64,000 nt of DNA from Heliocidaris erythrogramma. Its lineage: Eukaryota > Echinodermata > Echinoidea > Camarodonta > Echinometridae. The position numbers and the translations under genes were made by a program. Of this stretch, positions 6,777 to 62,999 are shown piece after piece (positions within the stretch are counted from its first letter, which is position 1; each line of letters begins with the position of its first letter). The notes below the pieces were generated by a model that was not told the DNA's origin, made no database searches, and worked only from the letters and a program-made list of their open reading frames with translations. The stretch covers positions 31,753,101-31,817,100 of the forward strand of contig CM046873.1 in assembly GCA_025617745.1 (NCBI GenBank). The letters are read 5' to 3'.

Positions 6777-6946
6777 ATTTACTGCAATAAATCATATATA
6801 CCTACCTATTATGCCTGTAGTCTTGACTACGGGACCCCTTCGAGAATTTAACACACATGAGTCACAATATTGTGCGCACCCCCCGTAATCCTATTGTCCC
6901 CTTCGCCACTCACGCGCGTCAACACACTACGGCCATCTTCCTCTTT
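6777..6946 (+). repeat. DIRS left inverted terminal repeat
   Basis: From about 6,797 onward this is the exact reverse complement of the right terminal repeat for about 140 bp. The outermost ~25 bp are unique to the left end and are mirrored only in the internal complementary region, as expected for DIRS1-type elements. Confidence 0.92.
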
Positions 6947-7825
6947 CTTGCTCGCCCCCGACGAGATAGGACGTATAGTCACAGCGCTCCTGAAATCAGG
7001 TCGTATAGTATCTTTTAGGTGCGCTTTTTCGCACATTTAAAGCACTTTTAGGTACCTATATTCGCTTAGATTATAGTACTTTGTGTTTTAGTAGTCACTC
7101 TTGCCGATTGCAAGGGATTTTTGTTTCCCTTTCTTGGCATTTATTTTTCTCTTTCACGGTCAGCCCCACGTAGATATTTCTGTGTGTTTGCGGGTGTTTC
7201 CGTTTGTCACCGAGCCTTTGGGTTCGGTGTTTGTTCTTACGGTTTTTTGGCTGTGAAAATTCTTTTTGTGCGTATCTCCCAAATAAAATTTACCCTTATT
7301 TTACTGCATTCAGTTGAAGTATTTCTTATTTTGGAAAGTATACTTTATTGTCTGTTTTATTGCAGTGGTTTGGATTCGGAAGAAGAAGCAGCTAGGTCAA
7401 GGAGACCTGCTTTTTCCGAAGAGTCGTCTAGCAAGACGACTCGGCCTTCCAGAACTCTCCCGAGTACTTCGGTACATGGGGGAGGGAGGAGGGCTAAGGG
7501 TAAGTTGCCTAGTGGTGTTTCCTTGCGGAGTTTGCCAGTCTCGTAGCTTGCGGCTTCGGGACGGGTGGCGTTAACTGAGTCGGGATTGTCAACTCCGAAG
7601 CCCGTGGTTTCGGGGTGGGTGGCGTCAGATTCTAGTGGTTTGGATATCTAACGATTCCAATCCCCCGGTCGCTGAGACCAGAGGGGGGAGGCGGTTGTTT
7701 CCCGTACGGTAGCGTTCACTCGCTCTGATCCGTTAGGGGAGACGCGCCCCACTACTGCAGGGCAACCCACGGGCTTAGTCCATGTTGGTCTGGGTTCTCA
7801 AACCCTAGCCCCCGGCAAACGCCAT

Positions 7826-9240
7826 ATGGGGGAACGAGTACTTCCTGGGCTGTCTACATTGCCAGCTAATGGGAATGCTCGAGCTAACAATTATGGACGC
7901 TCTTCGGAGCAACAGGTGTTTTCACCTGAGTGCGTGACTACTAGTGCTCCCCTATTGCCGCTTTCTAGCGGTCCAATAGCGGGTTCACACGCCTTTAGTA
8001 GTCATCGGGCACATACCGAGACATCTCGGTCTGCCCCCGCACTGGGAGCTTTTAGCTCCCAACCCATGGCTACTGCATCTTCTTGCTTAGCCAATATGGG
8101 TGATTTGGGCGATTCTCTAGGCTTACGCCATGAGCGCTCCAATCCCTTTATGGGAAGTGAACGTCCCTCCGCGGAGGGATCGGTTCGTGTTTCCGAAGCG
8201 GCTTCGGAGATCCGAACGAATCCGATTAAGCGTTCTAAGAAAAGGGTTTCGGCTACGACTCTTGTCGAGCCAGCCAAGAAAAAGGCCAAGAAGAAGGCAA
8301 AAAGTGGCAAGGCTTTGCCGGCCTCTTGCCCGTCTGGCCTGGCTAACCCAGCTAGCTCCTCTCAAGCTGACATGTTCAGCATGATGCGGGCTTTTGCTCA
8401 GAATCAGGGTTGGTCCTTTGTACCGGCTACTTCAACCCTGACTTCTGTCCCTATTCAGGGGTCTGACTTTTTACTAATCAGCCTTTTGTGTTTGATTCGT
8501 CTTTGTCTGAGTCGGTTTCGCATGTGCCTCCTATTCCCGCGGCCCTTGGGGCGCCGCCGGGCGAGGAGACTTTCGTTGAACCATGCGGGGCTCTGCCTGC
8601 TGAGTCCTTTGTTGGCGTTCCTTTGCTGGGTCATCCCGGTCCGCCCTTGCACTGGGCGCCTTGGCGCCCGGCCCATGGCTGTTGCATCTTCTTGCTCAGC
8701 AGATATGGGTAATTGGTGCGCGTCTTTGGGTTCAATACCCTCAGCGCACTTCTCCCATAAAGGGAGGTGAGCGTCCCTCAGCGGAGGGTTCGGTTCGTGT
8801 TCCCGAAGGGCTTCGGGGATCCGAACGAAACCGAATAAACGCTCTGATAAGCGGGTTTCGTCTTAGGCTCTTTTTGGGCCAATCAGAAGCCTAGGGAAGG
8901 GGCTAAAAGAGGCAAGGCTTTGCTTGCCTCTTGCCCATTGGGTTTAGCTAACCCTCCGGTCTCTCAAGCTGAGATGTTCGGTGTGAGATGGGCTTTGCCC
9001 AGACTCAGGGTTGGTCCCTTGTACCAGGCATCACATCCCCTGCTTTTGTCCCTCTTTTGGGTCGGACATCGAGACTAATTAGCCTTTTATGGTTTATTCT
9101 TCTTTGTCTGTGATGGGATCACATGCGCCTCCTATTCTCGCAGCCTCGGGGCTCCGTCGGGTGAGGAGGCTTATGGCGGTTCATGCGTGAATCCGACTGT
9201 TTCGGCCTTTGTTCGTGGTCCTTTGTCTTGATCATTTCAG
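7826..9240 (+). pseudogene. Gag-like region of the DIRS element (fossil)
   Basis: The first stretch is a Ser/Ala-rich region with a lysine/arginine cluster (KKKAKKKAKSGKA), in keeping with the poorly conserved first protein of DIRS elements. An internal direct duplication of about 606 bp covers much of the region: a block near 8,063-8,570 recurs near 8,672-9,170 at about 80% identity. The region is broken. Assignment rests on position and composition, because these proteins diverge quickly. Confidence 0.6.
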
Positions 9241-9899
9241 GCGGAACCAATTTTGGAGCCTCTCAAGCTTCGGTTTCCGAATCGCTGGGGCAGGCAGAGC
9301 CTTAGTCGCTCTCCCTTTGTGGGGTAGAAGCGATTGCTTTGTTCTAAACTTTCCCTGACTTTCAGTCAGCCCGCGCGCAGGGTTCGACTTTGCTTGGGTT
9401 CAGGCAGCGGGATTCCTCCGAGGGTATTTCTCTTGCGGAGGATTTCAAGCTGGATTATGGACGCATTGAAGCGGCGCTTCTTTTAAGCGTCATGTTTGGT
9501 TTGCAGTGGTCAGTTTTCCACTGCAGCTGCCTCGGTCATGTACCGTCGCAGAGTCTTGGTTCTTACGGCCCTTTGGGTTAAGGAGTCGGACATCGCACTG
9601 CTTCTCTCGGATGTTCCGTCTCGGGTCCTTTGCTTTTGGCGATGCGCGATAACAGGTCTCTGTCTTGTTTACATGCTCATCCTAAGTCGATGCGAGCCTC
9701 TGTCCGCGTCTCGTTTGGTGGCTGTCTTCGTTCCTTTCTCCCCGCTTGGGAGGCCATCTCCGGGGAAGCTTTTGTTCTCTTTGACGGACGAGACGGATTC
9801 TTCATAGATCTGTCCGCCCCGCTCCCCGGAGGGGCTATAGGAACTCGGTCACCTCACAGGCCCTAGCTCGTTCTCGTGCCTCATCAGAGATTGAATCTC

Positions 9900-11408
9900 T
9901 GTTGAATAAGTGGGCTATAGAAAGGGTAAGAGACTGGCTGTCTTTTTCCCTTTCTCCGACTTTTGTTATTCCCAAGCGCTCGGGAAAACTTCAGTACATT
10001 TTCGGATGGAGACTCTCGCCTCCATTCTCCTGTTGATCAAGAGGAAGGACTACGCGGTCTTGATAGTTTTCGAAGATGCGTATTTCCACTTTCCCATTCA
10101 TCGTGCTTCGCGCGATCTTCTGGGGTGTTTCCTTCCTCTCAGAGACTTATCGCTTTCGCACTCTTCCCTTCGGGCTGCGCCCAGTCCCTCGGGTTCTTAC
10201 TCGGGTTGTAGCCGTGCTGGCAGCCTCTCTGAGGCGACGCGGCCTTCGGCTATTTTTGCTACCTGGACGATTGGCTTCTCCTTGCGGAGTCGCGCGATCG
10301 TTTGTTGGACGAGACTCGTTTGCTCGTCTCTCTTACTCAAGACTTAGGTTTCCTAATAAATTGGGAAAAGTCAGAGTTAGTTCCCACTCGCAGCCCAGTT
10401 TTTCTGGGGGCGGTGTTAGACATAAGGAATCAGTTGGCTCGGCCCAGTCGAGACAGGATTCTCACCATTGTCTCTGCGGCTCGCAAGCTCTTGCTGGCCA
10501 GAAGAGTCTCGGCCAGACAGTGGCTTCAGTCTCTAGGTTATCTAGCCAGTCTAGTCGATGTTTTAGAGGACTGCCGGCTCCTCATGAGACCCTTTCAGAG
10601 ACATCTCCTCAGGTTCTTCAAGCCGGGAAAAGACTCTCTTTTGGTCTGGATTCCAGTACCAGTAAGGATCAAGTCTCTTCTCTCTTGTTGGACGAGCGAG
10701 GTGTTTCTCGCGCGAGGCAGGTCCTTCTCTGCCCCTCTTCCGTCGATATCGGTTTCGACGGACGCCTCTCGGTTGGGGTGGGGAGGACACTGCAACGGCA
10801 GCACGGTTGCGGGGGATTGGTCTCATCTTGGGACTCTTCCTCATTTCAATGTCCTGGAGTTTATGGCAGTTCTGTTGACCTTGCTCCATTTCAGAAGTCG
10901 ACTTCTCAGTCGTTCGGTTCTGATTCTCACGGACAATGTCACTGTGGCGGCATATATCAATCGGCAGGGAGGCACTCGTTCGGTTGCCCTGAATGCCCTA
11001 GCAACTCAGCTGTGGAGGTGGTGTCGTCGCATGGCAATCACACCCGTGGCCTCTTTCATCCCCGGTCGGGAAAACCTCATTGCGGATTTTCTGTCTCGGG
11101 GCAGGTATCTTCCATCGGAATGGACACTCCATCCGGAGGTATTTTGCCGCATTCGCAGTCGCCTAGGTCCACTGGAAGTGGATCTATTTGCGTCGGTGCT
11201 AAATCACCAGCTGCCGAAGTATTGCTCCCGTGTTCGCGATCAGGGAGCATGGGCTCTCGATGCTTTCTCCCTCAGCTGGGAGAACCTTCAGGGATTCGCC
11301 TTTCCTCCCTTCCAACTGATTCCGCGTGTCTTGCGGAAAATCAGGGAAGATCGGGTGCGGGTGCTCGTAATAGCTCCCTTTTGGCCCAGGAGGAATTGGT
11401 TTCCATAA
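9900..11408 (+). pseudogene. Reverse transcriptase / RNase H region of the DIRS element (fossil)
   Basis: The RNase H part is recognisable from STDASRLGWGGH and from TDNVTVAAYINRQGG, followed by the connecting segment typical of DIRS polyproteins (FIPGRENLIADFLSR). Upstream, RT-like segments such as TLPFGLRPVPRVLTR are visible. The region is broken, more heavily in the RT part than in the RNase H part. Confidence 0.88.
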
Positions 11409-11539
11409 CTTATGAGCCTCCTAAGGGCTCAACCGTTCGTTCTCCCGTTAAGAGCGGATCTGGTGTTACAGCCCCTATCGGGGATTCTTCACCACAGTCC
11501 GGAGTCTCTTCATTTGACTGCTTGGCCCCTGTCAGGGAA

Positions 11540-12557
11540 TCTGCAAGACAGTCGGGCCTCTCTGATAGAGCCGCGGACTTTTTAATGTCCAGTCGTAGGG
11601 TTTCTACTAGGGAAATTTACAATTCCCGTCTCTCGGTCTTTTTCCTTTGGTGCAAAGAGAGAAATCAAACCCCTTCTAAGGCTCCTATTGGTTCAATTGC
11701 GGATTTCTTAATCTCGTTATTTGACAAAGGGAGATCTATCTCTACTATCCGAGGCTACCGTTCGGCGATCGGGGCCATTCATTCGGGTTTCTCAGATGGT
11801 TCGGGGATTTCCAATTCCCCGCTACTAAGTGGTTTGATTCGTTCGTTCTTTCTGAAACGACCTTCTTTTTCTAAGTTAGTGCCGTCTTGGAGTCTGCCTA
11901 AGGTCCTGGAGGCCTTGGCGAAACCTCCTTTCGAACCGTTAGGTGAAGCTTCGCTTCATCATCTTACGGTTAAGACGCTCTTTTTGGTAGCTATTGCCTC
12001 TGGGCAGAGGCGCAGTACTCTTCATGCTCTGTCTTACTCCTGGTCATGTTCGCTGGGAGAGAAAAGGCGTTAGATTGATTCCTAGGGCTTCTTTTGTTGC
12101 CAAGAATCAGACAGCTGCCTCTGGCCCTGTTGAGATTTTTCTTTGTCCGCTTTCTAATTTTTCTTCGGTGCGTGAGGACAAAGTTTGGTGTCCTGTAAGG
12201 GCTCTCAAATGGTATATTGATAAGACTAAGTCTTATCGTAAGGATGATCAGTTGTTCCTGATCACTAGAGAGCCTTTTTCTCCTGCCTCTCTTGATTCCA
12301 TCTCTAGATGGATCGTTGAAGCTATTAGGGCCGCTGGCACAGAGGCTCTTTTATCCGACAGTAAGCCTCGTGCTCATGATACTCGTAGTGTCAGCACTTC
12401 TTTGGCTCTGTTTCAAGGTGTGGCGCTTGTTGATATTTTGAAGGCTGCTTATTGGCGTTCGCCCAATTCCTTCATTTCTTGCTACCTTAGGGATATTCCC
12501 GCAGGTGAAGCTTTGTTTGCGTCAGCCACCTTGAAGGCCGCTGTGTCTTCTTCGTAG
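11540..12557 (+). pseudogene. Tyrosine recombinase of the DIRS element (fossil)
   Basis: An N-terminal core-binding region (TREIYNSRLSVFFLWC, STIRGYRSAIGAIH) is followed by the catalytic half with the H-x-x-R signature (HDTR) and a downstream 'AYWRSPNSFISCYL' segment, where the family carries its nucleophilic tyrosine. This enzyme replaces the DDE integrase of LTR elements and joins a circular DNA intermediate to the target. The region is broken. Confidence 0.9.
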
Positions 12558-12625
12558 TCTTTGGTGTAATCCTATTCCCTTCTGCTCGAAACATGCCTCC
12601 CGGTCTTTGAGTTGGCGCTGGTCTG

Positions 12626-12719
12626 GCATAATAGGTAGGTATATATGATTTATTGCAGTAAATTTGTAAAATCAGCACTGATTTTCTTATTTACTATATA
12701 AATCTATATACCTACCTAT
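12626..12719 (+). repeat. DIRS internal complementary region
   Basis: The left half (12,626-12,663) is the exact reverse complement of the element's extreme left end. The right half (about 12,671-12,719) is the exact reverse complement of its extreme right end, with a few bases between. In DIRS1 this region is held to template the circle junction during reverse transcription. It overlaps no coding sequence here. Confidence 0.92.
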
Positions 12720-12779
12720 GACCCTCCCTCCTTCCCCTCACCTTGCAAGCAACATGTTTCTACTTGGGATTGCTCGCAA

Positions 12780-12965
12780 AAGAGGAAGATGGCCGTAGTG
12801 TGTTGACGCGCGTGAGTGGCGAAGGGGACAATAGGATTACGGGGGGTGCGCACAATATTGTGACTCATGTGTGTTAAATTCTCGAAGGGGTCCCGTAGTC
12901 AAGACTACAGGCATAATAGGTAGGTATATAGATTTATATAGTAAATAAGAAAATCAGTGCTGATT
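12780..12965 (+). repeat. DIRS right inverted terminal repeat
   Basis: Reverse complement of the left repeat without visible mismatch over the ~140-bp shared core. It ends with a unique outer segment ('gatttatatagtaaataag') mirrored in the internal complementary region. Confidence 0.92.
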
Positions 12966-24572: not shown

Positions 24573-24747
24573 ATCACCATCAAGGAGCTCCTTACTACTG
24601 CATGCAAGACCGAACCTGACCCTGGCAGTGAGGTGATAGTCTACGATCAAGGCACACTCGATATTACCTGCCTCACTGCAGACACTTTCCTTAGTGTCCT
24701 CCTGGCAAAGCTCAATGAGAGCTTTAAGACTGTCTCCTTACTAGCAG
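24573..24747 (+). CDS. DUSP8/16: DUSP exon: C-terminal half of rhodanese domain
   Basis: The exon opens after 'ccccattcag' and closes at 'gcag|gtaag'. It encodes 58 codons plus one base, beginning ITIKELL and containing VIVYDQGTLD and FLSVLLAKLNESF. These line up with the segment of vertebrate DUSP8 that reads VVVYDQSTRD and FLSILLSKLDGCF. This domain binds the MAP kinase and keeps the enzyme inactive until substrate docks. It ends in phase 1. Confidence 0.93.
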
Positions 24748-27700
24748 GTAAGAAAATCAGAACATTTTTTCCTTTCATTTTGTTGATAAGTTGATTATTT
24801 CTTGCAAAAAAATGACTTGTTTTCTCTGAAGTTTACAAGATTTAAAAAAGTGGTTGCACAATCATGGAGTAGTTTTTTCGCCTCATAATATCTTGGAGGA
24901 AGGAGACTATAGAGTAAGTATCCTATCAACTTTTTTTTTGTTTACCAGTAGTATTTTGTTTTGTTTAATGGTCAATGTTGTACTCATTTGTTGACTGGAT
25001 GTTGTTATCTGTTGTTGTTTATTGATAGATGTTAGTTATTTTAGATTTTTCTTTTGAAATGGTTACCCAGTATTTCATTTGGGACACCTCTCTGTTTTTA
25101 TATGGGGTGAAACCTTGTATTCTATGCTTACTGGTAGTTTTTTTTATCAAAGCTTATATGGATATGCAGGTAAGAGAACTACATGTATTAATTCAATGTT
25201 TCAGTATTTATGTCTGGTGTAAATTTTTGTCTCAAGTTTGTTTCAGCTAGGGACAGATGCCATGAAATGAGAGAAAATAGATTTGTAAAGTGTAAATTAA
25301 GCAAGGCCTTCCATGTGATTGGCCCTGTGTATTAAAGATACAGTAGAGTTCTGGTCATGCAATTACATTGTGAAAGAAACTATCTCAAAGCAATTGGGAA
25401 AGGTTGACCATGTCTACATAAGAATTGTTTTATACTATGTGGCCTTTAAAATCATCAAAATAGATAAGAAATTAACCCAATCTCACTGAAAACCACGTGT
25501 TCTTCACACAGAAATGGGTACATGTGTACTACACACACAAGTGGAATGAATGCTCCGCCCGAACATTTCAGTTATTTCTAGTCATATATTTAAATAGAGC
25601 ATTTGAAGCGCAATCATTTTCAGGGAGTGTTTCTATTATGATGTTCTTCCAAACTGACATAAAAAGAATGAGAAAGCTCACAAATTATTGTACACCTTTC
25701 CCAGAACTCAAGATTTCCTTTATGACCAATGAATGGTGTAATTCCCATAAGCTTAATACAGGGAGAACCCGGTTCTGTAGGCAAGTGATGTAATGGCCAA
25801 GCTTTTGTTGGTTTGTATCTCCTTTACAATGTGGAAACCCGTCAACGGATACTGGTAACCAATTCCCTTCAAAATTAAGCCTTGGGGGAATGAGAAAATC
25901 CAGTGTTCAACAGGATTTATATTCACGTAATTATGTAATGAGAAAATGCAGGAGATGATGAGATATAGCTGCTCATCTCAAAGGTACAAACGAGTGACAA
26001 CAAGAAAAATAATTAAAAGATGGGGGAAGAAACCCTTGTCCGGCATAAACCATGCTAATAACATGCCACTGGGCTCTCGCTCGCTGTATTCCCTACATGT
26101 GATGAAAATCGCTATTAGAGATGGGCTCGTTATAGATGCCTCATCCCGTGCGTGGCTGCCTGCTTCATCTCGTGATGACCAAGAGAGGGCCTTTGACCAC
26201 GTCATCAGCTGGTCTCCGTAGGAAGGAGCCACGAGCGTGGAAATAACGTCTGAAATCGCTTCCCTCCTCGACTGGTCGAGAGGGACCGCTGTGTTATGAT
26301 GAGATGTGTTATGAGATTTCTTGACTCCTCGGGCAGTTCTTTTGTGATGTTATTTTGTGGAATTGTATTATAGCTTTAGCATTTTTCTTGTGGAAATGAT
26401 GTTTGTTCGGAACCATAAGGGCATTAACACAGAGTTAATGCCCCTCTGGCTCTCAACCTACCATATGTTTTCTTTGATATCTAATAAGCTTCTGGGATTG
26501 GTGATATTTGTCTATAGTATGTCTTTTGTGGGTCATTTTGTTTATTTGCATGTTTTCAGTATCATCAGCTTAAACTAATAAATTTGACAAAATTGTGAGA
26601 TTTTAATGATGTTTGATTACCTCTGACTCATTTGAATGAGTTTTAAAAGTACTGTCGTGGCATGGTTTCACGTGTTGTAATAATTGTATGAAAATGTATG
26701 ATGTAATTATGTATTTATTGAAGACAAAAGTCTGAAGTTGTGACTCATTGTAGATTACGTAATACAGTGAGCACTTATCTTCCAAGACCTTGTTATATGC
26801 AGATATCACCCTTCAATTTAATCATTACAATATTAGTTATGTTGTTTGTGTCCAGCATGCATGTATCTCAGTTTTGTTTTATCTCGTTTTAAATTAATTT
26901 TTCAGCATTGTGAATGTAGTGCAAATTAATTTCGGTTTTCTTGTATTAATGAATAATCGTTTAGTTTTGAAAATGCTTTGTAATTTCTGGTTTCTGTGTA
27001 GTTTTCAATGACAATGTAAGGAAATGCCATTGGCACTATCTAAGAGTTTAACTAAATTTGGTCTGATTAAATATTAGATCATCTATCTTGTACTGCTTAT
27101 GTAAATCCATATGTCATTATATACAAGTATGTTGCATTTTTAGGCAAAAATGAGAACTATTCTATTACTGAGCACTGAGGAGATATATGAGACATAAGGC
27201 ATTTCCAATCTTGAAGTGGTTACGATTACAAATGCATCTTGTAAATCAATCAACGTTGGGGATTTTCATAATGACATCATACATATGCATCACCCAGGCT
27301 TATGTTACATGTAGGATATCTAATGATGAATAATGACTATTATCCAACTTTGATGAGCTCATCATTATGTAAGTTAACCACTAATTTAGACGATTACTCA
27401 CAAGAAGCCAGTTGAAGGGAATCATCTCAGACAAGTCGACACACCCCTCAGCTCCGTGGTTATAAATTAAGCTTCCTTTATTAATTTCATGGCTTTTGTC
27501 TTTGTTTTATCCTTGTATGTAGAGGGTTTTTAATTAATAGCAACCTTCGTACATGAACCTACATAAATGTTACATCTACATATGTGTGTTACTGTGATAG
27601 GTTGATCAAGGGACCTACCAGTATATTGTATTCTATGAACTTTTATGACATATAGGCCTACTGGTATTCACATCGAATTATCAGTTGATAGTTGTTTGGC

Positions 27701-30700
27701 TAATAACATTTTTTTTGTTATTGCCTTTGATATAGTTCTGTGTTACATAGCTTTATCAGTGATTCTTGTTCATGATGACAATTTTTGTTTTTCTTTGAAA
27801 AGTTTTTTTTAACGATTTCTGATATATGCATGAAAAAGTTGCTCTGCTCATATATGGTCGTCATATAGTTTTCTATTTCCGATTGGTTTTGTAAAGTCTG
27901 TAAAGTGTTTGTTAATTTGTCTCATAAAGTATTTGTGATAAATGTTTGTGAATACATGTAACTGTATGCAGGTGGTAAAAGTTGAAACGTTCAACCATTT
28001 GAGGACATATTTGATTGTTTATGCTTGAGTTAAAATATTTATGGAATTTGAGGCATATGGAAGTGAATATGTTGAGGAATATATTCCAGTATGCTGGAAT
28101 CATACAGCTATAGCAATGTATAAAGGTATGATAACATATTCCATTTTCTAAGCTTTAGATATTGGAAGTGTTGGAGGGCATATTGAATAGAATATTTTAT
28201 TGAATACACATATTCCAGTATGCTGGAAACATACAGCTGTAGCAACTATATATATAGTTCGATGTTCTCCTCTTTATGAATGCACTGCTGGATTATGAAC
28301 GTTGATAAGTGCCTGAGGGATATGTATTTCTGAAACCCTGGTATCCATCTGCCATCTTTTGGATCAATTAATGGATGTCATATCTTTCAATAACATACCC
28401 CATAACGACAAGGAATAGCCTGGAATATACCACAGCAGTATATTTCCCCTGGAATAGCTCTGTGTGTGTTGGTGAATAGTCAGTGCACAGTGGGTGAACA
28501 CATTCAATGGATGGGACACACTCATGCAGAGCAGGCACTGGTAATGTATTTGTGTAAAGGAGGGGAAGTGCCAGATTGGCTTGTAGCTGGATGACATCAT
28601 CATGCTGCGCTGTGATTGGTCAGCACCTGGGATGACTCATCCTGGGGTTGTCCTCTCTCTCTCTCTCTCTCTCTCTGCACAGCTGATTACAGATCTCCTC
28701 TATGTGTGTATGTAATGACTGTGTTTACTATACACCCTGTGTGTCAGAGGGCTATCTCCATGTAAGGCATAGAGTACCTCGCACTGCCAGGATCTCGCTA
28801 GGTACACTCATCCCCTTTACCCCTATGACTGTACCAGAAGCGCCCTTTCTTCTCTCTTCCTCGTTCGTTTGTATCATACCCCTCGAGCGGAATAGAACGA
28901 GAGTGTCCCCACCAATTTGCTCGCGATTCATTGTTGACTAGAGCCTCGCTGCTAGGGAGACACAAGTTGCTCAATCGTGGTAGAGAGAGGACTTATTTTT
29001 GCTAAAGCTCCACGAAAGACGCTCCGTCGTTGAGGAATCATACATGGTTCACCATTGCCTTGATCACGTTGAAAGATAGTTTGGCGTTTTGGAGCGCAAC
29101 TTTCTCCGCAGCCCAATGTTACTGGATTTTTAGTTGTGGATTTAAATAAACCAACCATGGTTATCCAAGTCGAGAGGAACGTGAAAACAGTCGCCGCAGG
29201 CGGTAAGGATATTACCTACATATACCAAAAACATATGTATTTATAAGTCTTCATCATGTTAATCGACTTGTATGTAGATAAACATTGTACATTTCATCAA
29301 CAACCTACAGGGAAAAAATTATTTTCTTTCTGTGTATATTTCATCTAAGAAACATGTCGTTTTACCTGTGTCAATATATTTGGTATATTTCATCTGTATA
29401 TTTCATAACCTGTAGTACAGGCCTATATGATCATATTGATCATGATGATACATATAATTATTTTACATACATGTATGTGTATTGGGAAATATTGAAAAAT
29501 ATCAAAGTTAAGCAAAAGACAGAAAGACTTCTGTATTGTGAGCTCATATAAATGCATTAATTCTGCAACAAATATCACTTCACAAGTGGAATTTGTTAAC
29601 AAGGAGTTTTTAAAATGCTTTCAGTCTAAGTTTTGAAATAGAATTTTCTACTTTCTTTGTAATGAAAGCTACAGCTATTTGTATTAGTTAGATTTGTTCT
29701 AATGTCTATGAGGGATATATGTATTAAAAATCAATATACACATGCATAACCTTTGTATATTATCATCTCATACATTTCATGATAAGATATATTATTCCTA
29801 GAAAATACTAAATATACATACATGTATTTGGCAATCATGAAGATTTTGAAACACATTTGTATACTCTTGTGCCAAAACAACAAATCAATTCAATGTTGTT
29901 GCTACCTACACTCCGGGTATACATTTAGAAAACTTTGAATAAGTTTCTTCTGTCCAAATCCCTTATTTCTTGTAAAATTATAATGTAGATGATTTGATTT
30001 TCATTTCAATAGAAAAATTTCAGAAGTTTCCTCCCCATTTATTGTTTCTTTGATATTTGATTTGTATATATCATAACTTATAAAGAGTATGTAAATGCAG
30101 CTGCATTTGTGTATATTTAAAAATCAAAAATAGTAAATGAGTAGCCAAATATTCCGCTTAATTGCCTAAATTCCACAAACAATCAAACCCTTTCAAACCT
30201 AGTCTTTTTTTCTTTGGTCTTCAGTTTGTGTATATTTCATAAGATGAATATATATTTTCATACAGTATTTAGGACAGAGTAAGTTGGGATATTTATGCTT
30301 TGCTTGTCAACATCAAACTCCTTTTCTTGTTGGATAAAATAGGTTGATGTGTAGACTATCTGTGTTTCATTTTCTCTTCAATTTATGTTAGAGTAATATA
30401 TCCATTCAATTGAAGAATATTCAGCTTTGGGGGAAAGTTGTAAATTTGGCACTGTTTTACTTGGCGTATGACATATTCTTTGGTATAAACAGAGGGTTTG
30501 TGATTATGTCATACCATATAAAGGGTTTTTCTCTCTCCGCTCTCCAGCGTAATGTATGATGTAGTAACCCTAAGTACTTGGTTTTTCCTGTGGGCCGAGG
30601 TTAAACGCATATCGACGCACTTCCTTTTATTGTGGATGGAGTAGACTGGTGTAATCCAGATAATAGTGAGAGTGATAGAGGAGAGAGACGTTACCTCAGG

Positions 30701-33700
30701 GAGTTTGGAATTATTATCTATACAAAACCATTGTTTCCTTTTGGCCTCTCTTTCTTTCATTGACTCTCTCTCTCTCTCTCTTTGTAGCACTGTCTCTCTA
30801 TTTTCTTTATGGAATTTCCCCATCTCATTATCTCCCATTGTTTTGATCTCTTTCCCTAGATGTTCTCACACTCTTTCTCTATCTCTCGTTTTCTCTCTCT
30901 CTCTCTCTGATACTTGGACTTCAACGCTTATACACAAACTTTTATAAGTTTGATACATGAGGCCAACTATGTACCTCGCCTTTCCTTCTCTTTCTCTCTC
31001 TCTGCCTTTCTCTCTGTCTCTCTATCTCAGTCTAAATGTATCTATCTCTGTATAAATGTACATGTAGGCCTGTGTGTATCTCTCTCTCTCTCTCTTTCTC
31101 ACTCTCACTCTCACTTTTTATCTCCACCTTTCTATCCCACACTCTCCGTCCGGTATATGTATAGGTATCGAGAGACAGAAAGTGAGCTTTAGACCCTCCC
31201 ATGGGTTTCCTCCCTAATATGGTCATGTAAACGTCCGTTGTAGAGTTCCTACTATTGTCTTGTTGACTTTGATTACAATTGGGGATATTCCGGTTGATGA
31301 GTATGGTCTTACGATGTACATTGTTCCGCAGTAACGAGCAGATATTGTTACGAGGCTCTCATGCATAAAACATGGAAGAATGGATTGACGTTAATCATTA
31401 TGACCAGTGATATGACGTCTTTGTATGATCGTAAAAATTTGAATCATATCTAGTAAGATTTTTAAGATTAATCAGGAGTTTGTTTTTTATAATGGACAAG
31501 TATAAATATATGTGTATGTTAAGAAGTACTACTTAGGCTCCTTATTCTATGAATAATATTTCTGTTACCACTACCAGTATGAGTCGGTATGATTCTATTT
31601 TTTAAGAGTTTGCAACTTTGCAAATTACATTCTGTACTCTTGGATTTGAAATCATTTGTAATATGATTTTCTTTACTTCTTTGTCTCTTGCCAGCTAAGT
31701 GTAAAAAGTTTGTTATGATTATGGAAAGAAAAATCAGTTATTGTTGATGGTTGCATTAATATGTTGATAGTTGATAACATATTTACTCTAGGTCTGTTGA
31801 TGGAATATGTATTTGTGATGAAATGAGATGGATTAATATCACTCGTGTTTGTTGAGCCTTTTGTATGGGATGATTCACTGTGAATTAATCCATTGACTGC
31901 TGAACTTTGTCATTCCCATGGAATTAACACAGGAACCACCCACTTCCCACAGGCAATGGGTTAAGCATGTACTGAATTTCAAAATAAATTTGTCTTCTTC
32001 TCCCTATCATAGGTGGCTACACATCATTCCAGTCTTGTTTCCCGTACCTCTGTGAGTCGCAGAACCGTCCCCCTTGCCCCGCCCGTGCCCCCCTCTCACA
32101 GCCCTGTCTACCGGTGTCCAACACGGGCCCCACCCGTGTGCTGGGATTCTTATACCTTGGATCACAACAGGTAAGTAAATGGTGATAAGAAATTGGCTTT
32201 AATCCATTAAATACTAAGCCTGAGATAACTCTGTCTGTAGTCAATATAAAATGTGTGTCGTCAAATTGTACATCTTAATCAAAGGGTATAAAAAGGGTTA
32301 ATTGTAGTGTGTGGGTTGTGAGGAGAGAATAAAAGTCTGTTTACTGTGCTCTTTTATTTATAGATATTGATTATTTTGGATGAGGCATTGTATGTCTTTC
32401 CACTTTTTCTGTTATGGTAGATTGAAAATAAACAAAAGTTTCCCCCAAAATGAAAAATTTACATATGCATGCCTTGAAATTATCCAGTGTACGATCATGA
32501 AAGTAAGCATAGTCTGCACTTTCCAATACGGGTGAAAATAATCAACTCTGAAGTAGTCCATGTTAAGACATACATGCAGGGCCTATATTCTATCTATCTA
32601 CCAGGGCCATATGTCTCAGTGCCTTGAGCCAAGGCTAGATGGATGAGTCATAGGGGGAGAGAGAGAGATAGAGAGCAGGAGTGCAAACTTGTCATATCCT
32701 GATCAAATAGGTTCAGCCAGAAGAATAGCCCTGTACTGGCTTGGGGGTTATCAGCTTATAACACAGGCCTACACGTATATAAGGCTAAGATTAGACATGG
32801 TGTACAGTGATACACTTACATTGTACCTAGGCTTGTATAATGACAATTATGATAAATTATGTATATTCACTTCACAACTGTTTTATCAAAATCATACCTT
32901 GGAAGTGGTTTTAAAGTTATACAAAACTTTGCATTTATAAAAATGAATTATATTCTATGTGAAAGGCTCAGTGCACCTCTTAGAGAACATGGATAGTTGA
33001 AAAGATACAGTCATTTAAATTGTAAAATTGTGATGAAAAACAAGATTTGTCTATCAGATATAAATATAATATCCTACAAAACTGACTTTGCATGATTAAC
33101 ATGTACATGTAGGTGTATGCCATATGTGTATGTCCTCATTGCAAGAAGGGTGTAAATACATACTATATCCTTCAGAGTTAACATCCTTCTTCCTCTCAAC
33201 AGACTGTATGAAAATATTTAGGAGGGTTATAATTTTTATAAATTTTCCTTTTTTTTTTTTTATCTGACAGGATGTGATGTCGGAGGAGTGCCTGAAGAAT
33301 TATGGGATCAACTATGTCCTCAACGTCAGCCGGTCTTGTCCAATCCCAGAGTTCCTTCCCCAGACCCACTTCCATCGGATACCAGTCCGGGACAACCACA
33401 GCGAGAAGATCCTCCCCTGGTTCGACGAGGCGCTCGAGTTTATCGGTGAGTGTTAAAATCGCAAAATGTACAATAATATCTTATTGACAAATTAACCGAC
33501 TTTACAGACAGGACATTATTTTTTTTTTTTTCACATTTTTTAAACATTCATGTAGTATACCACCTTCAGAAAATGTCATCAAAATTCTTTTATACAGGAG
33601 ATACTGCACATAAAAAAATTGTAGTCATTTTGTGACTTTGAACAGAAAAGTTCCATGCACTTGATTCTGCCACTTGTGCAATTAGCTGCCAAGCCTGTGC

Positions 33701-36700
33701 AATTACCTGCCACAAGATGGCAGCATTGCACCTTTCAGAACTGCACACTGACCAAGGCACTGGTGTATGAAGGCTCAATTCCACCCAACTGTGCTTTGCA
33801 TATATGAAGAGGCATTCTTAATCCTAAAATAAATAGAATTTTTTTTTCCCTTATTTTTTTTTTGGGGGGGGGGGGGGAGATAGGTTTAAAGGATGAACCC
33901 ATTTGTTCCTTTGAGGGGAAAACATATTTAGGGAACATGTTTTTAAAAATACTATACAGCATGACAAACCTCCTATGCATTCTGTAAGTGAAACTACAAG
34001 AGCTGCCAGGCTCCACGCACCGAAATTGGATAATTTGGACCAAATTTGTTCCGTTTATGCAGCCTCACTGACCTGTAGCTATTCATAGTGCCCAGTGAAT
34101 TACCTCGTTACGAATGGTCATCTCTTACTCATGTTCACGATTTCCTCTCTTGCGCTGACTAAGTGATGTTCGCAGGTCCCTTAATCAGCTTTTTGGTTTC
34201 TTTTTTCGGGTATCATGGCGTTTCTTGGTGCGTCACTGGAACCCGTAGCATGAATCAGAGAAAAAATTTGAGTGGTCACTTCCCTCTAAGCGCCCCCCCC
34301 CCCCCCATTACCAAACCATGCTAAATAGGGAATTCCAATAGATTATATGTGCTACAGCGATGTGCAACAGCGATGTGCAACATGGTATATTTTTAACATT
34401 CTAAGATTATTGATCAGTTTATTGAGATAAGTAAGATTTGATTTTTAAGAAATATTTATGAAACAGAAACATCTACTGGTATTTCTATAAGGTGTAAAAG
34501 CTGAGTCAGCTGCTATATGCAGACATTTAAAATTGCATACATATTTCAATATGTGATGAAATACTGTCAAGGTGAGCCAAATTTTAATAACACAGAGAGA
34601 TAATATACATACAGATTACAGTTACCATTTTTTTTTTTAGTTTGGCATGGGCAGTGGCGAACCTTTAATCCTTTTTCATGAAAGCGGATGACATAGCAAG
34701 CTGCCTCCAGTCGTAATTAAATTGCGTTTTGATCAGCGCGAGCGGGTCATTACCGCGCCCTCTCTTCTGCATTGTCATGTCTGTTGCCAGCCGCATCGTA
34801 ATTTGAGCGCCGAAAATAAACCGCCCAGCCTCGTCGCCTCGAAACGAGAAGAGACACAAATACATGACGGTTATCGCCTCGTGATCATGACGAGGATGAT
34901 GATTATGTGTATGATGATATTAGGGACATGGGAGGCAGACAAGAAATATATTAAAAGCCATCAGCATTTTAATATCACCTCTACAGGTACAAGCTAAAGC
35001 TCTATTTATAACTGTTATGAGATCCCTTTACCCATGCTTCTTGCGAAAAAAAAAAATCAACCTTTTGCTCTTTGATGACATTTTCTTATTGGGGGAAGCC
35101 TAGGGGTATTAAAAGATGTTTCCTTGCAAGGCCCTTATCATCATACATGTTCATACATGTAGTTGCCAATTTGATTAGACTCTCGAGTAATGAGCAACCT
35201 GAATGTATGTTTATCTTAGGGATAGTTGCCTGAATGAAACGAGAGTCAGAACAGTCTTTTGCACATTCAGACAAGCTATACACATGAGCCAATTTTAACT
35301 TCTCCAAAGGATGATGAACCCATGGCAATATTCCTGTCTTTAGAAACATACAAGATTATCCATTGATGTACTCATAATGGAACAAATATATCATTTTTTA
35401 ATCACAAGATAAAGAACAAAAGGCACGGGGAAATGATACTTTGGAAGGAGATAATATTCTCTTAATGAAAGAATGCTCTATCATATCCATATCAGTTGTA
35501 CTTATGCAGGGTGTACATCCAAATTAAGTATATCGTGAGTCAATGTCGCTTGAGGCTCATATATTTCCCAGTCATAGCTTGTTCATGACTCTGACTCTCT
35601 TTCCGCGCCAGGATCCAATTAATACGATCTTTTTTTTTCCTCATGGCATCACGGAAATAGATATCACTAGTCATGCTTTTTCATCAAACATTTGGCCACA
35701 CCTGTCTGCGAAAATTTGATTTGAAGATTCATCATCTTGTGTGAGTAAGACGAGCACTGCGATGGACTCATTTGAATAGAATTATATCTTATCATTGTCA
35801 CCTGGAAAAGGAAATGATGATCTGGTCTTTGTCAGGGGCACTGGAGATTTAACATTCCATTCTGATAATACAATGTCGCTATGGATTGAGCATTGGCTTG
35901 GAGATTGTGAAACAAAAAATATTCCAGACCGTTTGTAAACTATTTAGATTCCTTTATCGGTTTCAAATTCAAAACAAGCTCTACCCGTAACAAGAAATTT
36001 GCCATCCATTTGTAAACTATATATGTTTCAATTGAATATTGTTTATACTAATCCTTTATTTCATCCCTCGTCTTTTGTTCTTTCAGACAAAGTTCGGTCT
36101 GCCAACGGAAGCGTCATCGTTCACTGTCTTGCAGGGATCTCGCGTTCTCCAACCGTTGCTATTGCCTTCATCATGCGATACCTCAATATGAACGTGGATG
36201 AGGCTTACAAGTAAGTTGAAACATCAGACAACTTCTATAATTTGCTTGCCTACAAGTACATGTATATTTCTTCAACATATCATATACAATCCTGTTGAGA
36301 ACTAGAAGGGTATTGACTTTCACTCTTGAAAATGTTAGCAGGTTTATTATATCCCCCCCCCCCCCCCCCCCCCCTGAGATGTGATAAAATAGTGTGCTTC
36401 TCTAATAGCTAGTTGAATCCCTCTCAAAAAATAGAAACAGATTTGAAATACTTTCAAATGAATATCAATACATGAGGCGATAGATTCAACTGAAGGGTAT
36501 AATGAATTCTGTGTCGATGAATAAGTTTCATTGATCTGTTGGGGGGGGGGGGGAGACCCGGAGTGATGTAGCTTGCAGTTGGTGACCATATTGCGATCAA
36601 ATGCATGGAAAAAGTGGAAGACTGCATCAAAGTTTGTGATGCAACCTGATGTAATAGCCAGCTAAGGGGGTCGGAAGATCATATTTTTAGCAGATGAGTC

Positions 36701-39069
36701 AACAGGGTCGGATTGATAGCCCCGGTATCGGACTCGAGGAGGAAATTGGTTAGGGATAAGAGGCAAGGTATGGAAAGACACAAGGCCTGCTAGAGAGCAA
36801 GGTTGACCCTGATAGAGTCTGGGTGATACTGTACAGCAATCAACCTGCTTGCATTACATGGACCCACCCATATATAATCTTGTAGTCTTATATATCTTAT
36901 TAAAACATTTGTAATATGCCAACATTTAGAATATGATTAGTTATGTGAATTATAAACAAAACCGAAAGAAGAGGTGATACCAATGACTGTAGCATTTGAA
37001 TAAAGTCTCAGGTTTTTGTTCATGATTTTAACCGAATTCATTCATATTCATTTTGAATGTATATTTGATTTGTATGTTGACATAATAAGTATAAAATTAT
37101 GGAGTGAGTAAGTTAATTATCTTTGATTTTTCTACCTTTATTTACTTTCAGATATGTCAAAGAGAAAAGGGCAACCATTTCTCCAAACTTCAACTTCCTC
37201 GGCCAGCTCTTGGAGTATGAGAAGATCATTCGAACAAGGCAAGGCCGACCTTCGACCCTTCAACCCTCAGGACCCCCCAAGGAGGACGTCGAACCTACAG
37301 AGATGAAGGAGAAGGAGGAAGGTGCTTGTGCCAGCGAGCCTTCCAGTATGCTGACCTCACCGAAGGAGGAATCGGTGAAGGTCACGTACCCGAAAAAGGG
37401 GCTAGAGGAATCGGTGCTCCCCATCAAGCCCCATATCAGGAAACTCAGTTTGGAGAATCTCTCGTTGCCATTGAAGTGTTCCTACATGCCGGGCAAGGCA
37501 AGCCCCAGGCTGAGCAGGACTTTACCCCGCGTCACTTTCGCCGACGCGCCCACCACACCTACCTCAGAAAACAAGTCGATCAAACGCTCGCTCAGCCGCG
37601 ACGCCCTCACAGAAGTCGGGACGCAAACGCTTGTTACAGAGAAACGCTCCACAAGCCATCTTACACTCGACCTGAAGAGTGCTCCGAGCAGAACATTGCA
37701 AAGACCTACAGGTCTTGATGTGAAGAAGACTGTTCTTTTGCTTGACTCGCCGGGAGATTCGAAGAAGCCCCGATCCCTTTGCAATAGCCCCTCCGGCCTC
37801 CTTGAACAACTTGCCTGGGGTACTAGCCACCTCAGTGTACATTCGCCAGAAGTTCGCAATAATAACCCTTTTGTGGAGGCATGCGCAAAGTTCCAGGCCC
37901 AACAGACAGGCCTGAGCAGTGGAGTCCAGAGGTCGCATCCCGAGAACTCTAAGAGTAAGGTGGAGAGAACAAAGCTGAAATTAGAAGGACTTGTCTCAAA
38001 CTCTGAAACCATCTGTGCGGAGGTACAGGCTGCAGAGAACCTGATCCCAGCCGCATCAGGGTCGTCAGTTCTCACTGCACCTGCTTCACCCTCAACCAGC
38101 AGGAGCCAGAGGCACAAACATAGTGAGACATCTGTAGGGTTTCAATTTGGACGATCGCGAATAAACCACCCTGACCCAGGTACCAGCAGCACAAGGGTCG
38201 CAAACACCTCAATAACAAAGGACCAACAAAAACCAAGTGCGCTAAAGAAACCAACCTTTGGACCTCAGAACTCACCACCCCCTATCCAATCCTCTGCATC
38301 CCTCGTTGGCGGGGGAAATGTTTCAAACCCCTTCTTTTCCCGTCAAAGCAGTGGACAATCAGTGACTAGTGACCTCAGTCTTAGCAGCACAGCTTCCCCA
38401 GCTTTAGATCCTAGTTCTAGTTCTTGGATGACCACTCATGGTTCGGTCAGCTCTGGAATATCTCCAGACATCAACCTAAGTTCAGCTGCAAGTAGTGCTT
38501 GCAGCAGTGCTAATCTTAAACCAGACTCTAGTCAGAAATCAAAAGGTTCAGCTGATGTGGAAACTCCTCAAGTTCTCCCGTCAGGTTGGAATCCCTTCTC
38601 ATTCCCTCAGGCCAAAGCCGACGATAGTCCTAGCAGCCGTGGTGACAACGTGGTCTGGCAAAAACGTAAGGAGTCTGGGAATAGTGTCGAAGAATCTGGA
38701 CAATCTCAAAGAGTCCACCAGTCACCCACGACGGCAATGGATCGGGTCGCGACGTATATCACCAAATGTAACTTCGGTTCCCCAGATGTAAGCGACTCCG
38801 ATTCCTCCGAACCCACACACCCCCACAAGAAGAAGTGCAATAACAAGAAACGCCCCAAGCTACACCCCAGTGTCCGCAGCCAATCCTGCGAGGAGATTGG
38901 CTCTTGCTCACGAGAGGTGGTCACTTCAGAGATCGTAGTCAGCGCCAGGCGGGAGATTCTCGAGTATGGTCGGTCGGCGTTGGACCAGGATGAGGAGGAC
39001 TTTGACACAAGGTCACTCAGCAGTCAAAGGTCGCTCAGCAGTAGTTGCGAGATGATCGAGGTTTCATGA
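24573..39069 (+). CDS. DUSP8/16: Dual-specificity MAP kinase phosphatase, DUSP8/DUSP16 (MKP-7) class; 5' exon missing
   Basis: This enzyme removes phosphate from Thr and Tyr of activated MAP kinases; the vertebrate DUSP8/16 class prefers JNK and p38. Five exons join in consistent phase: 24,573-24,747, 32,013-32,170, 33,271-33,445, 36,087-36,210 and 37,152-39,069. Visible parts in order are the second half of the rhodanese (CH2, MAPK-binding) domain, the catalytic domain with acid Asp (33,391-33,393) and the HCLAGISRS loop (Cys 36,125-36,127, Arg 36,143-36,145), and a ~630-residue Ser-rich tail. The 849 visible residues plus an expected ~60 from a first exon exceed vertebrate DUSP16 (about 665). 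That first exon, with the start and the basic docking motif, was not found and probably lies upstream. The nearest recognisable gene is TMEM19, convergent and 22 kb away. Confidence 0.93.
24748..26019 (+). other. DUSP intron, first part; nothing recognised
   Basis: AT-rich intron sequence with ordinary short frames. Confidence 0.5.
26020..26290. promoter_or_regulatory. GC/CpG-richer island in DUSP intron; possible enhancer
   Basis: This ~270-bp block has visibly more GC and CpG than the surrounding intron and contains a small palindrome, 'cctcgactggtcgaggg'-like, at about 26,264-26,283. It has no repeat structure I recognise and no splice-bounded coding frame. A regulatory role is inferred from composition only. 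Confidence 0.3.
26405..26465. repeat. 85-bp palindromic dispersed repeat, copy 3
   Basis: 'ggaaccataagggcattaac' pairs with 'gttaatgcccctctggctc'. The loop is shorter than in copy 1 because the middle has been lost, leaving a tighter hairpin. Confidence 0.65.
26466..28059 (+). other. DUSP intron, middle part; nothing recognised
   Basis: Strongly AT-rich intron sequence. Confidence 0.45.
28060..28250. repeat. Direct duplication, ~129-bp offset, with TTCCAG(N4)CTGGAA palindrome
   Basis: 'atattccagtatgctggaa' followed by 'catacagct' and 'tagcaa' occurs at 28,081 and again at 28,210. The flanking GAATA-rich sequence is also shared. Confidence 0.65.
28640..29156 (+). promoter_or_regulatory. DUSP8/16: Candidate internal promoter and 5' leader with two upstream ORFs
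   Basis: A GC- and CpG-richer block inside the long AT-rich intron, opening with a (CT)n tract at 28,652-28,676. It leads directly into a strong-context ATG with a splice donor (29,157-29,202). Two very short upstream reading frames are present: 29,044-29,079 (12 codons with stop) and 29,116-29,133 (6 codons with stop). These could damp translation of the main start. No TATA box is obvious. The promoter call is inferred from composition and from the exon that follows. Confidence 0.45.
29157..29202 (+). CDS. DUSP8/16: Candidate alternative first coding exon of DUSP8/16
   Basis: An ATG in near-ideal context (accaaccATGG) opens MVIQVERNVKTVAAG and runs 15 codons plus one base to a consensus donor (GGCG|GTAAGG). 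The exon ends in phase 1, exactly the phase in which the rhodanese exon at 24,747 ends, so either could splice to the acceptor at 32,013. The product would start at the linker before the catalytic domain and lack the whole MAPK-docking module. It would be an active-site-complete phosphatase with altered substrate choice or location. No transcript evidence is available, so the start of an unrelated short gene cannot be excluded. Confidence 0.5.
29203..30760 (+). other. DUSP intron; nothing recognised
   Basis: Very AT-rich, with many ATAT and 'gtatatttcat' variants but no regular period. Confidence 0.45.
30761..31130 (+). repeat. Clustered CT microsatellites in DUSP intron
   Basis: Four (CT)n blocks near 30,764-30,784, 30,890-30,908, 30,990-31,025 and 31,078-31,112, separated by C/T-rich sequence. 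Confidence 0.85.
31131..32012 (+). other. DUSP intron 3' part
   Basis: Ordinary intron sequence ending in the acceptor 'ctccctatcatag'. Confidence 0.5.
32013..32170 (+). CDS. DUSP8/16: DUSP exon: linker and start of catalytic domain
   Basis: Bounded by 'catcatag' and 'cacaacag|gtaagt'. It encodes GGYTSFQSCFPYLCE, a Pro/Cys-rich linker and GPTRVLGFLYLGSQ, where the dual-specificity phosphatase domain starts (vertebrate DUSP8: GLTRILPHLYLGSQ). Entry is in phase 1 and exit in phase 0. Confidence 0.95.
32171..33270 (+). other. DUSP intron
   Basis: 1.1-kb intron with a T-rich acceptor tract. No other feature is seen. Confidence 0.6.
33271..33445 (+). CDS. DUSP8/16: DUSP exon: catalytic domain with general-acid Asp
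   Basis: The exon opens after 'tatctgacag' and closes at 'tatcg|gtgagt'. It encodes YGINYVLNVSRSCPIPEF and IPVRDNHSEKILPWFDEALEFI. The Asp of RDN is the expected proton donor of the phosphatase reaction. Phase 0 in, phase 1 out. Confidence 0.96.
33446..34669 (+). other. DUSP intron with G14 and C14 runs
   Basis: Contains a G14 run at 33,864-33,877 and a C14 run at 34,293-34,306. Nothing else is recognised. Confidence 0.5.
34670..34900. promoter_or_regulatory. CpG-richer island in DUSP intron; possible enhancer
   Basis: A sharply bounded GC-richer block with several CpGs in an AT-rich intron. It has no repeat signature and no splice-bounded frame. The function is inferred from composition alone. 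Confidence 0.3.
34901..36086 (+). other. DUSP intron, last part
   Basis: Near 35,600 'tttccgcgcc' matches an E2F-type core, which is a single short match. The intron ends in 'tgttctttcag'. Confidence 0.45.
36087..36210 (+). CDS. DUSP8/16: DUSP exon: phosphatase signature loop
   Basis: Encodes DKVRSANGSVIVHCLAGISR and SPTVAIAFIMRYLNMNVDEA. The H-C-x5-R loop supplies the nucleophilic Cys (36,125-36,127) and phosphate-binding Arg (36,143-36,145), both intact. Phase 1 in, phase 2 out, matching the next exon's first base. Confidence 0.97.
36211..37151 (+). other. DUSP intron with C22 and G13 runs
   Basis: A C22 run at 36,353-36,374 and a G13 run at 36,541-36,553 lie ~165 bp apart and could pair in a single strand. 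A half-copy of the palindromic repeat ('ctgttgagaactagaaggg') is at about 36,290-36,311. Confidence 0.55.
37152..39069 (+). CDS. DUSP8/16: DUSP terminal exon: end of catalytic domain and long Ser-rich tail
   Basis: The exon starts after 'tactttcag' with YVKEKRATISPNFNFLGQLL, the conserved end of the catalytic domain. It continues for about 610 residues of low-complexity Ser/Pro/Lys-rich sequence and stops with TGA at 39,067-39,069. The tail holds three NPF tripeptides (37,864-37,872, 38,326-38,334, 38,590-38,598), a basic cluster KKKCNNKKRPK (38,827-38,859) that could be a nuclear localisation signal, and an acidic/Ser end. Vertebrate DUSP8/16 also carry long C-terminal tails, but this one is longer. 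GC content is well above that of the introns. Confidence 0.95.
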
Positions 39070-62360: not shown

Positions 62361-62979
62361 CAGAGACAGACAGGGAGACAGATAAGAGGGACAGAGAAAA
62401 CAGAGACAGAGAGAGGCAGAGGAAGAGATTGATATTTACAGCTTGTGACTTATGGGCTTAATCTTTGAACTGCACAAAAGAAACAGATCCCTCCTCTTGA
62501 AGAAAAACAACAACATATATATTAACAAAATCACACACACACACAAAATGTGTGTTCAATAATTACAACAAACAAAGCAGCAAAGAATTTAAAAATATAT
62601 ATACAAGTCATTAACTGGTTGCAAGATCACCTTTATTTGACTATTTCTCACAATTCATGTACAGTGTATTTGGGTAAAACTTCCTTTGTTATAGTTAGGG
62701 GCAGTTGATGTAATACATATATAAGACGATAGGCAAGTAACCAAATAAATGGACAAATACTACCTGAGTACTGGAACCAAGACCCAAGCAAGGAGTCGAA
62801 GATGGACCCCACCAGACCAGCTAAGCCCCCAAAGATGACCACGGGCCACTGGGGAGGGGAGTCATGAAGCATTTCTTGGTTGAAGGTCACAAAGATCCCC
62901 ACCAGATATCCCAGGCCTACCACCAGTCCCCCTGCAAAGCTCATCAAGGTACCAACTACGGACACGCCCCCGTTGGTTC
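61191..62979 (-). CDS. TMEM19: TMEM19 (DUF92 membrane protein), last two exons
   Basis: A multi-pass membrane protein of the DUF92 family (vertebrate TMEM19; plant relatives include the phytyl-phosphate kinase VTE6). The animal function is not established. Exons at 62,764-62,979 and 61,191-61,357 join in phase 1. The first gives GTNGGVSVVGTLMSFAGGL, two hydrophobic segments and GGLAGLVGSIFDSLLGSWFQ. The second gives HISGVALFDNEGINLLSCLL and ends in YWPQIS, like the vertebrate C-terminus (…HIAGK..LDNN.VN…FWP). The rest of the gene lies beyond the right edge of the window. The intron of ~1.4 kb is filled with small transposons. Confidence 0.92.
61358..61518 (-). other. TMEM19 intron, 3' part
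   Basis: Short intron stretch with a GA-rich run on the + strand (61,373-61,395), which forms the polypyrimidine tract of the acceptor. Confidence 0.6.
61519..61656. mobile_element. 138-bp MITE in TMEM19 intron
   Basis: The ends 'gggccctgtttcataaaact' and the reverse complement of 'cacttgatgaaatgcccccc' are inverted copies, followed inward by 'tgtca' and 'tgaca'. No coding sequence and no clear target duplication. Confidence 0.7.
61695..62030. mobile_element. Probable MITE with TTATAAAAYGGGTT ends and central 20-bp palindrome
   Basis: 'ttataaaacgggtt' (about 61,698-61,711) is inverted at 62,013-62,026 ('aacccattttataa'). In the middle is the perfect palindrome ATCGATATCGCGATATCGAT (61,871-61,890). 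The block is CpG-richer than its flanks. Confidence 0.55.
62038..62187. repeat. 150-bp hairpin, ~58-bp arms
   Basis: The arms 62,038-62,097 and 62,132-62,187 are inverted copies around a 34-nt loop. The innermost 18 bp ('aggtttttattgtggtgt' and its complement) are perfect, and the outer parts are ~80% identical. It abuts the preceding MITE and could be a separate insertion or its partner. Confidence 0.75.
62188..62763 (-). other. TMEM19 intron, 5' part, with GA microsatellite
   Basis: An interrupted (GA)n/(GACA)n tract at about 62,320-62,425 and a short (CA)n at 62,531-62,546. The donor 'ctcag|gtagta' (minus strand) marks the exon edge at 62,764. Confidence 0.6.
62764..62979 (-). CDS. TMEM19: TMEM19 penultimate exon
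   Basis: 216 bp between acceptor 'catcttttcaatag' and donor 'ctcag|gtagta' (minus strand), phase 1 at both ends. It encodes the conserved GTNGGVS motif, GLVVGLGYLVGIFVTF and the GLAGLVGSIFDSLLG motif characteristic of DUF92. It is the only full-length copy in the array that follows. Confidence 0.93.
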
Positions 62980-62999
62980 CTATTGAAAAGATGAAAATG

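Follow-up and report, generated by a model that had tools for sequence, protein, structure and literature searches.

A putative intragenic promoter and alternative first exon in the DUSP8/16 gene of the sea urchin Heliocidaris erythrogramma

A segment at 28.84-29.20 kb of a 64,000-nucleotide window (the whole stretch of DNA analysed, plus strand, 31753101-31817100 of contig CM046873.1 of Heliocidaris erythrogramma) may be an intragenic promoter with an alternative first exon of a DUSP8/16 gene. Judged from the sequence, this explanation, the likeliest of those considered, comes close to, but somewhat short of, an even chance of being right. As we infer its transcription, translation and kinase preference, transcripts would start within a CpG-rich block, translation would begin at the ATG at 29157 and a splice would link 29202 with 32013. 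This would yield a phosphatase of 806 aa: 15 new residues and the glycine at the junction, followed by a remnant of the end of the rhodanese domain, the catalytic domain and the tail. The KIM would be missing, as would almost the whole rhodanese domain. Such a short form, placed under separate transcriptional control, would be a differently controlled phosphatase that docks JNK through the FNFL motif of its catalytic domain and has weaker or altered p38 docking.

The host gene belongs to the DUSP8/16 group, the identity it had been given in the preliminary description. In a phmmer search against PDB with 237 residues, running from the rhodanese half to the end of the catalytic domain, the catalytic domain best matched human DUSP16 (4yr8, E 2.1e-60) and DUSP8 (4jmk, E 8.3e-53), well ahead of DUSP1 as the next-best match (E 4.3e-37). 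The canonical coding exons are as follows, in window coordinates, negative numbers lying upstream of the window.

-71636 to -71364 (about 31.68 Mb of the contig): KIM exon, which carries GSKLVKRRLQHNK, detected by a search with human DUSP16 (E 1.7e-13).
24573-24747, plus strand: rhodanese-end exon, encoding the second half of the rhodanese domain (tblastn; DUSP16 structure 2vsw, E 4e-16), absent from the candidate isoform.
32013-32170, plus strand: exon common to both forms, with the last piece of the rhodanese fold, the linker and the start of the catalytic domain.
33271-33445, plus strand: catalytic-domain exon.
36087-36210, plus strand: catalytic-domain exon with the HCLAGISRS active site.
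37152-39069, plus strand: last coding exon, with the end of the catalytic domain including the FNFL motif, the long C-terminal tail and the stop.

The half domain scored 16.2 with the Pfam Rhodanese model, below the cut-off of 22.2. Within the 64-kb window, tblastn gave no convincing match to a KIM exon. The exon found upstream, ...INVTGSKLVKRRLQHNK, runs up to gtgagt with a phase-0 end, and the first ATG after an in-frame stop was taken as its start codon; the exon sits in a 1.2-kb CpG-rich block, and its position gives an intron of 95.9 kb up to 24573. Joined from this exon onward, the canonical ORF has 940 aa and 0 internal stops, and its product contains both the KIM and the rhodanese module. 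FNFL, an FXF JNK-docking motif, is present in the catalytic domain.

Three further features make up the candidate.

28840-29156, plus strand: putative promoter-proximal or 5' UTR portion of the proposed alternative first exon, rich in GC and CpG, its bound at 28840 set by eye.
29157-29202, plus strand: candidate alternative coding exon, encoding MVIQVERNVKTVAAG and the first base of a Gly codon, with a strong-context ATG, an open frame, a phase-1 end and a GC/CpG step at its 3' end.
29203-29208, plus strand: splice donor, GCG followed by gtaagg, scoring 4.32, compared with 4.28-8.76 for the gene's four canonical donors within the window.

The observation of an ATG, open codons and a donor at 29157-29202 was confirmed. 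The ATG (29157-29159) lies in the context CCAACCATGG, with A at -3 and G at +4, and is thus as strong as had been claimed. The 46-nt stretch consists of 15 open codons and 1 base. Upstream, the nearest in-frame stop is at 29070, and no in-frame ATG occurs between this stop and 29157. The 7.3-kb intron placed earlier between the rhodanese exon and the catalytic exons corresponds to 24748-32012 (7265 nt), flanked by exons 24573-24747 and 32013-32170. The shared phase that had been proposed was also found: the rhodanese exon and the candidate both end in phase 1, and therefore either can join 32013. The clean junction from 29202 to 32013 likewise held, since the joined frame runs for 806 aa without an internal stop. 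In this predicted isoform the active site and the tail are kept, and residues 1-195 match positions 1-132 of the 133 in PF00782 (DSPc, E 2e-45), in agreement with the claim that the whole catalytic domain and tail would be retained. The donor had been described as consensus, which is true of its intron side (GTAAG is perfect) and not of its exon side (GCG is poor), so that it is a moderate site rather than a full consensus. Counting the candidate, 31 of the 3517 plus-strand GTs in the window score as high, on donor and acceptor PWMs built from generic frequencies instead of this genome's own.

The ATG-donor pair taken alone is weak evidence. A triple, defined as a strong-context ATG, an open frame of up to 60 codons and a phase-1 donor scoring at least 4.28, occurs once in the host intron. 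Across 164 kb it is met at 5 plus-strand donors, which form 6 ATG-donor pairs, and in 2 minus-strand pairs. When the intron was simulated 400 times with a second-order Markov model, 11% of the runs contained one or more, so that such a triple by itself carries no significance. A chance pairing of an ORF with a donor is thus compatible with the pair itself and is weakened by the composition of the surrounding sequence.

Composition gives stronger evidence than the pair and lifts the candidate above chance. Scanning 28850-29600 placed the best GC change-points at 29208 and then 29203, and the best CpG change-point at 29201. For GC, the top six change-points all lie between 29203 and 29210, for CpG between 29201 and 29206. 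Both measures drop within 6 nt of the donor GT. Between 28840 and 29202, GC is 0.477 with 23 CpG and a CpG o/e of 1.12, and over the next 1001 nt GC is 0.274 with an o/e of 0.21. Measured over 300 nt on each side, the GC drop at the candidate donor (0.203) ranks first among the 87 plus-strand donors scoring at least 4.27 in 164 kb. Four of the five canonical donors follow at ranks 2, 3, 6 and 9, and the best of the 81 remaining non-canonical donors reaches 0.150. With four canonical donors in the top ten, the measure picks real exon ends here; it also misses some, as the near-zero drop of 0.017 at canonical donor 36210, outside the top ten, indicates.

Donors were also compared with the edges of CpG-rich blocks, of which 50, canonical exons included, make up 19% of the 164 kb when blocks of 300 nt are used. 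On the plus strand a donor lies at most 10 nt from the right GC edge in 2 of the 50 (the candidate and canonical 33445; 0.57 expected), and on the minus strand in 0 of 50. A threshold of 4.28 just left out 33445, and 4.27 was used in a later run. Blocks of 200 nt gave a nearby donor in 5 of 65 cases on the plus strand (two canonical, the candidate and two weak steps) and 0 of 66 on the minus strand; blocks of 400 nt gave such a donor in 2 of 35 (the candidate plus a weak step) and 0 of 35, respectively. These composition tests are partly after the fact because the site had been picked in the preliminary description before they were run. On our reading, these sequence features make 29202 a probable genuine end of an exon. 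Two other CpG-rich and GC-richer intronic blocks, at 25921-26510 and 34541-35050, have no donor scoring at least 4.28 within 300 nt of their right edges and are possible regulatory elements of the gene.

The main rival, which we regard as unlikely and still as a serious contender, is that the block is a CpG-rich cis-regulatory element (an enhancer) or some other GC-rich intronic island, and that the ATG, the 15 codons and the donor came together by chance, as the simulated introns allow. Blocks without exons do exist: with the 4.28 threshold, no donor lies close to the right edge (10 nt or less) in 49 of the 50 CpG-rich blocks in 164 kb. In addition, 28500-29160 contains one AP-1 consensus (TGACTCA at 28633; 0.19 expected) and four CCAAT/ATTGG sites (1.42 expected), yet neither a TATA box nor a TCAKTY initiator. 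The looser initiator BBCABW is not enriched there either (8 against 9.1 expected). A bacterial promoter scan found nothing, its model being uninformative for an animal gene. Set against the enhancer or island is the coincidence of the GC/CpG edge with the donor to within 6 nt, at a GC drop larger than at any of the 81 other non-canonical donors.

An intragenic promoter is favoured by the likeness of the block to the region of the canonical first coding exon. The CpG block around the candidate spans 28731-29250. Besides the o/e of 1.12 given above for the candidate block, that exon has an o/e of 1.03 and its block 1.14, and the flanking intron has 0.21 and 0.38. Among internal exons, 36087-36210 also reaches 1.21 (the others 0.29-0.84), and the promoter-like CpG of the candidate block therefore does not decide between a first and an internal exon.

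In the second rival, which we consider clearly improbable, splicing enters the block at 28683, or alternatively at 29112 or 28791, and uses it as an internal cassette exon or as a terminal one. Such use would lead to the opposite product, namely a rhodanese-only protein, or to nonsense-mediated decay.

28683-29202, plus strand: rival internal (poison) exon of 520 nt with an acceptor score of 7.05, frame-shifting, its translation ending in ...SLLAADYRSPLCVYVMTVFTIHPVCQRAISM and a stop after the rhodanese domain.

The acceptor at 28683 scores above 4 of the 5 canonical acceptors scored, those at 29112 and 28791 reach 3.88 and 3.58, and each of the three versions, when spliced after 24747, leads to a frameshift and a stop once the rhodanese part has been read. 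An AATAAA at 29145 (0.61 expected in the stretch scanned) could be the mark of a 3' end instead. Such an exon is biologically sensible in light of the mouse Dusp16 transcript AK035652, listed as 'Rhodanese domain only' (PMC1431701, Table 7), which likewise splits the rhodanese and catalytic modules within one gene family; as listed there, its product is the opposite of the isoform predicted here and would fit a poison or terminal exon. Nevertheless, 28683 lies directly behind a CT run and is one of 17 plus-strand acceptor sites scoring at least 7.0 in 164 kb. CpG richness starts about 100-150 nt downstream of it (400-nt windows), and entry at this site leaves the strong-context ATG in the sole useful frame unexplained.

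Lowest in probability, with a distinctly small chance, is that the block holds the first exon of a different transcript, noncoding or 5'-UTR-only, and encodes no isoform: intragenic CpG promoters often yield noncoding RNAs, and two uORFs precede the ATG at 29157 (ATG 29044, 11 codons; ATG 29116, 5 codons; both end before 29157), but the frame matches that of the DUSP8/16 coding exon at 32013, and no stop intervenes. Origin of the block from a repeat or transposon was rejected, as 29000-29300 matches itself alone in its own 1.06-Gb genome of 26 contigs, in a search that passes over very common words as well as simple repeats, and a look for tandem arrays across 28400-29400 reported none.

If the candidate is indeed an alternative first exon, its consequences for kinase docking would differ from those first proposed. 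Loss of the MAPK-binding module had been predicted, and this stands in so far as the KIM exon, 95.9 kb upstream, and the rhodanese exon would both be skipped; it does not extend to the catalytic-domain docking motif FNFL, which stays as residues 181-184 of the predicted isoform. The further claim, that the enzyme would be uncoupled from its usual kinases, is probably wrong in part. For human MKP7 it was reported that leaving out the rhodanese domain gives nearly identical kcat and Km on JNK1, and that JNK1 is bound by the catalytic-domain motif 285-FNFL-288, binding by the rhodanese domain not being detected (PMC4802042). For MKP5, the same paper cites a 280-fold rise of Km for p38alpha upon deletion of the rhodanese domain. 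By analogy with these reported data and with FNFL retained, JNK coupling of the predicted isoform should survive, and its p38 docking would be weaker or altered.

The catalytic domain with HCLAGISRS and FNFL and the long tail are shared with canonical MKP7/DUSP16 and hVH5/DUSP8, from which the predicted isoform differs in having neither the KIM nor the rhodanese module. An exon boundary is shared by vertebrate DUSP8/16 genes. Atypical DUSPs and Drosophila puckered are also catalytic DUSPs without an N-terminal rhodanese domain; they are separate genes and not isoforms of DUSP8/16. The idea of a rhodanese-less DUSP8 isoform is reportedly not new, a precedent being described for chicken DUSP8 (PMC12536144). 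There, a region in intron 3, GW1, carries active-promoter marks in muscle and may act as an alternative promoter, and a short in-frame transcript encodes a predicted protein without the rhodanese domain (isoform X2, XM_004941446.5/XP_004941503.2). According to the same account, CRISPR activation of GW1 raises the short transcript, and the authors call the short form higher than the long one in muscle. As far as these descriptions go, the resemblance to the present candidate lies in an in-frame predicted product that lacks the rhodanese domain and keeps the catalytic domain, and in a proposed promoter within an intron. The likeness is one of description, and the protein of chicken X2 is a translation too; chicken X2 is reported to be backed by RNA-seq, H3K4me3, H3K27ac, DNase and CRISPR activation, whereas the candidate here is a prediction from sequence. 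No echinoderm DUSP8/16 isoform was among the literature matches listed.

A broader interpretation, which appears improbable, is that chicken DUSP8 and the present gene both have a promoter with a first exon in the intron that directly follows the rhodanese exons, forming a switch between a docking-complete and a catalytic-only enzyme, with JNK action kept and p38 action changed, and that this switch dates far back in the history of the gene and is no peculiarity of chicken. If so, the new part would be the age of the rhodanese-less DUSP8/16 arrangement. If the candidate is transcribed, two promoters about 100 kb apart would give either the full docking enzyme or a form with only catalytic-domain (FXF) docking, which predicts a selective change of p38 over JNK control and not a loss of both. 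Taken with the chicken DUSP8 isoform, transcription would also open a direct test, across animals, of how old rhodanese-less DUSP8/16 is and what it serves. Should the candidate be untranscribed, the locus still illustrates the way in which an intron can acquire an edge like that of an exon.

Several other elements were noted near the gene. Within the 95.9-kb intron, -56743 to -56679 was considered as a second possible alternative exon (acceptor score 8.92, GC drop 0.15) and set aside: its frames are broken by stops and motif copies lie nearby, which, judged by eye, suggests mobile-element sequence. The surrounding region, from about -57400 to -56600, is CpG-rich and contains, again by eye, a 'cgagactggtctcggg'-like motif repeated several times in direct and inverted orientation, beside the strong acceptor and a donor. 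Within the window, a 6.1-kb element at 6795-12930 carries a perfect 152-nt inverted repeat at each end (6795-6946; 12779-12930; 100% complementary). It is CpG-rich, with fragmentary ORFs and a weak RT_RNaseH match below the cut-off (E 0.09), and looks like a retrotransposon, which we presume may be DIRS-like. Downstream of the phosphatase gene, on the opposite strand, an ORF at 62651-63031 (minus strand) matches DUF92 (PF01940, E 1.8e-16) and is presumably an exon of a TMEM19-like gene.
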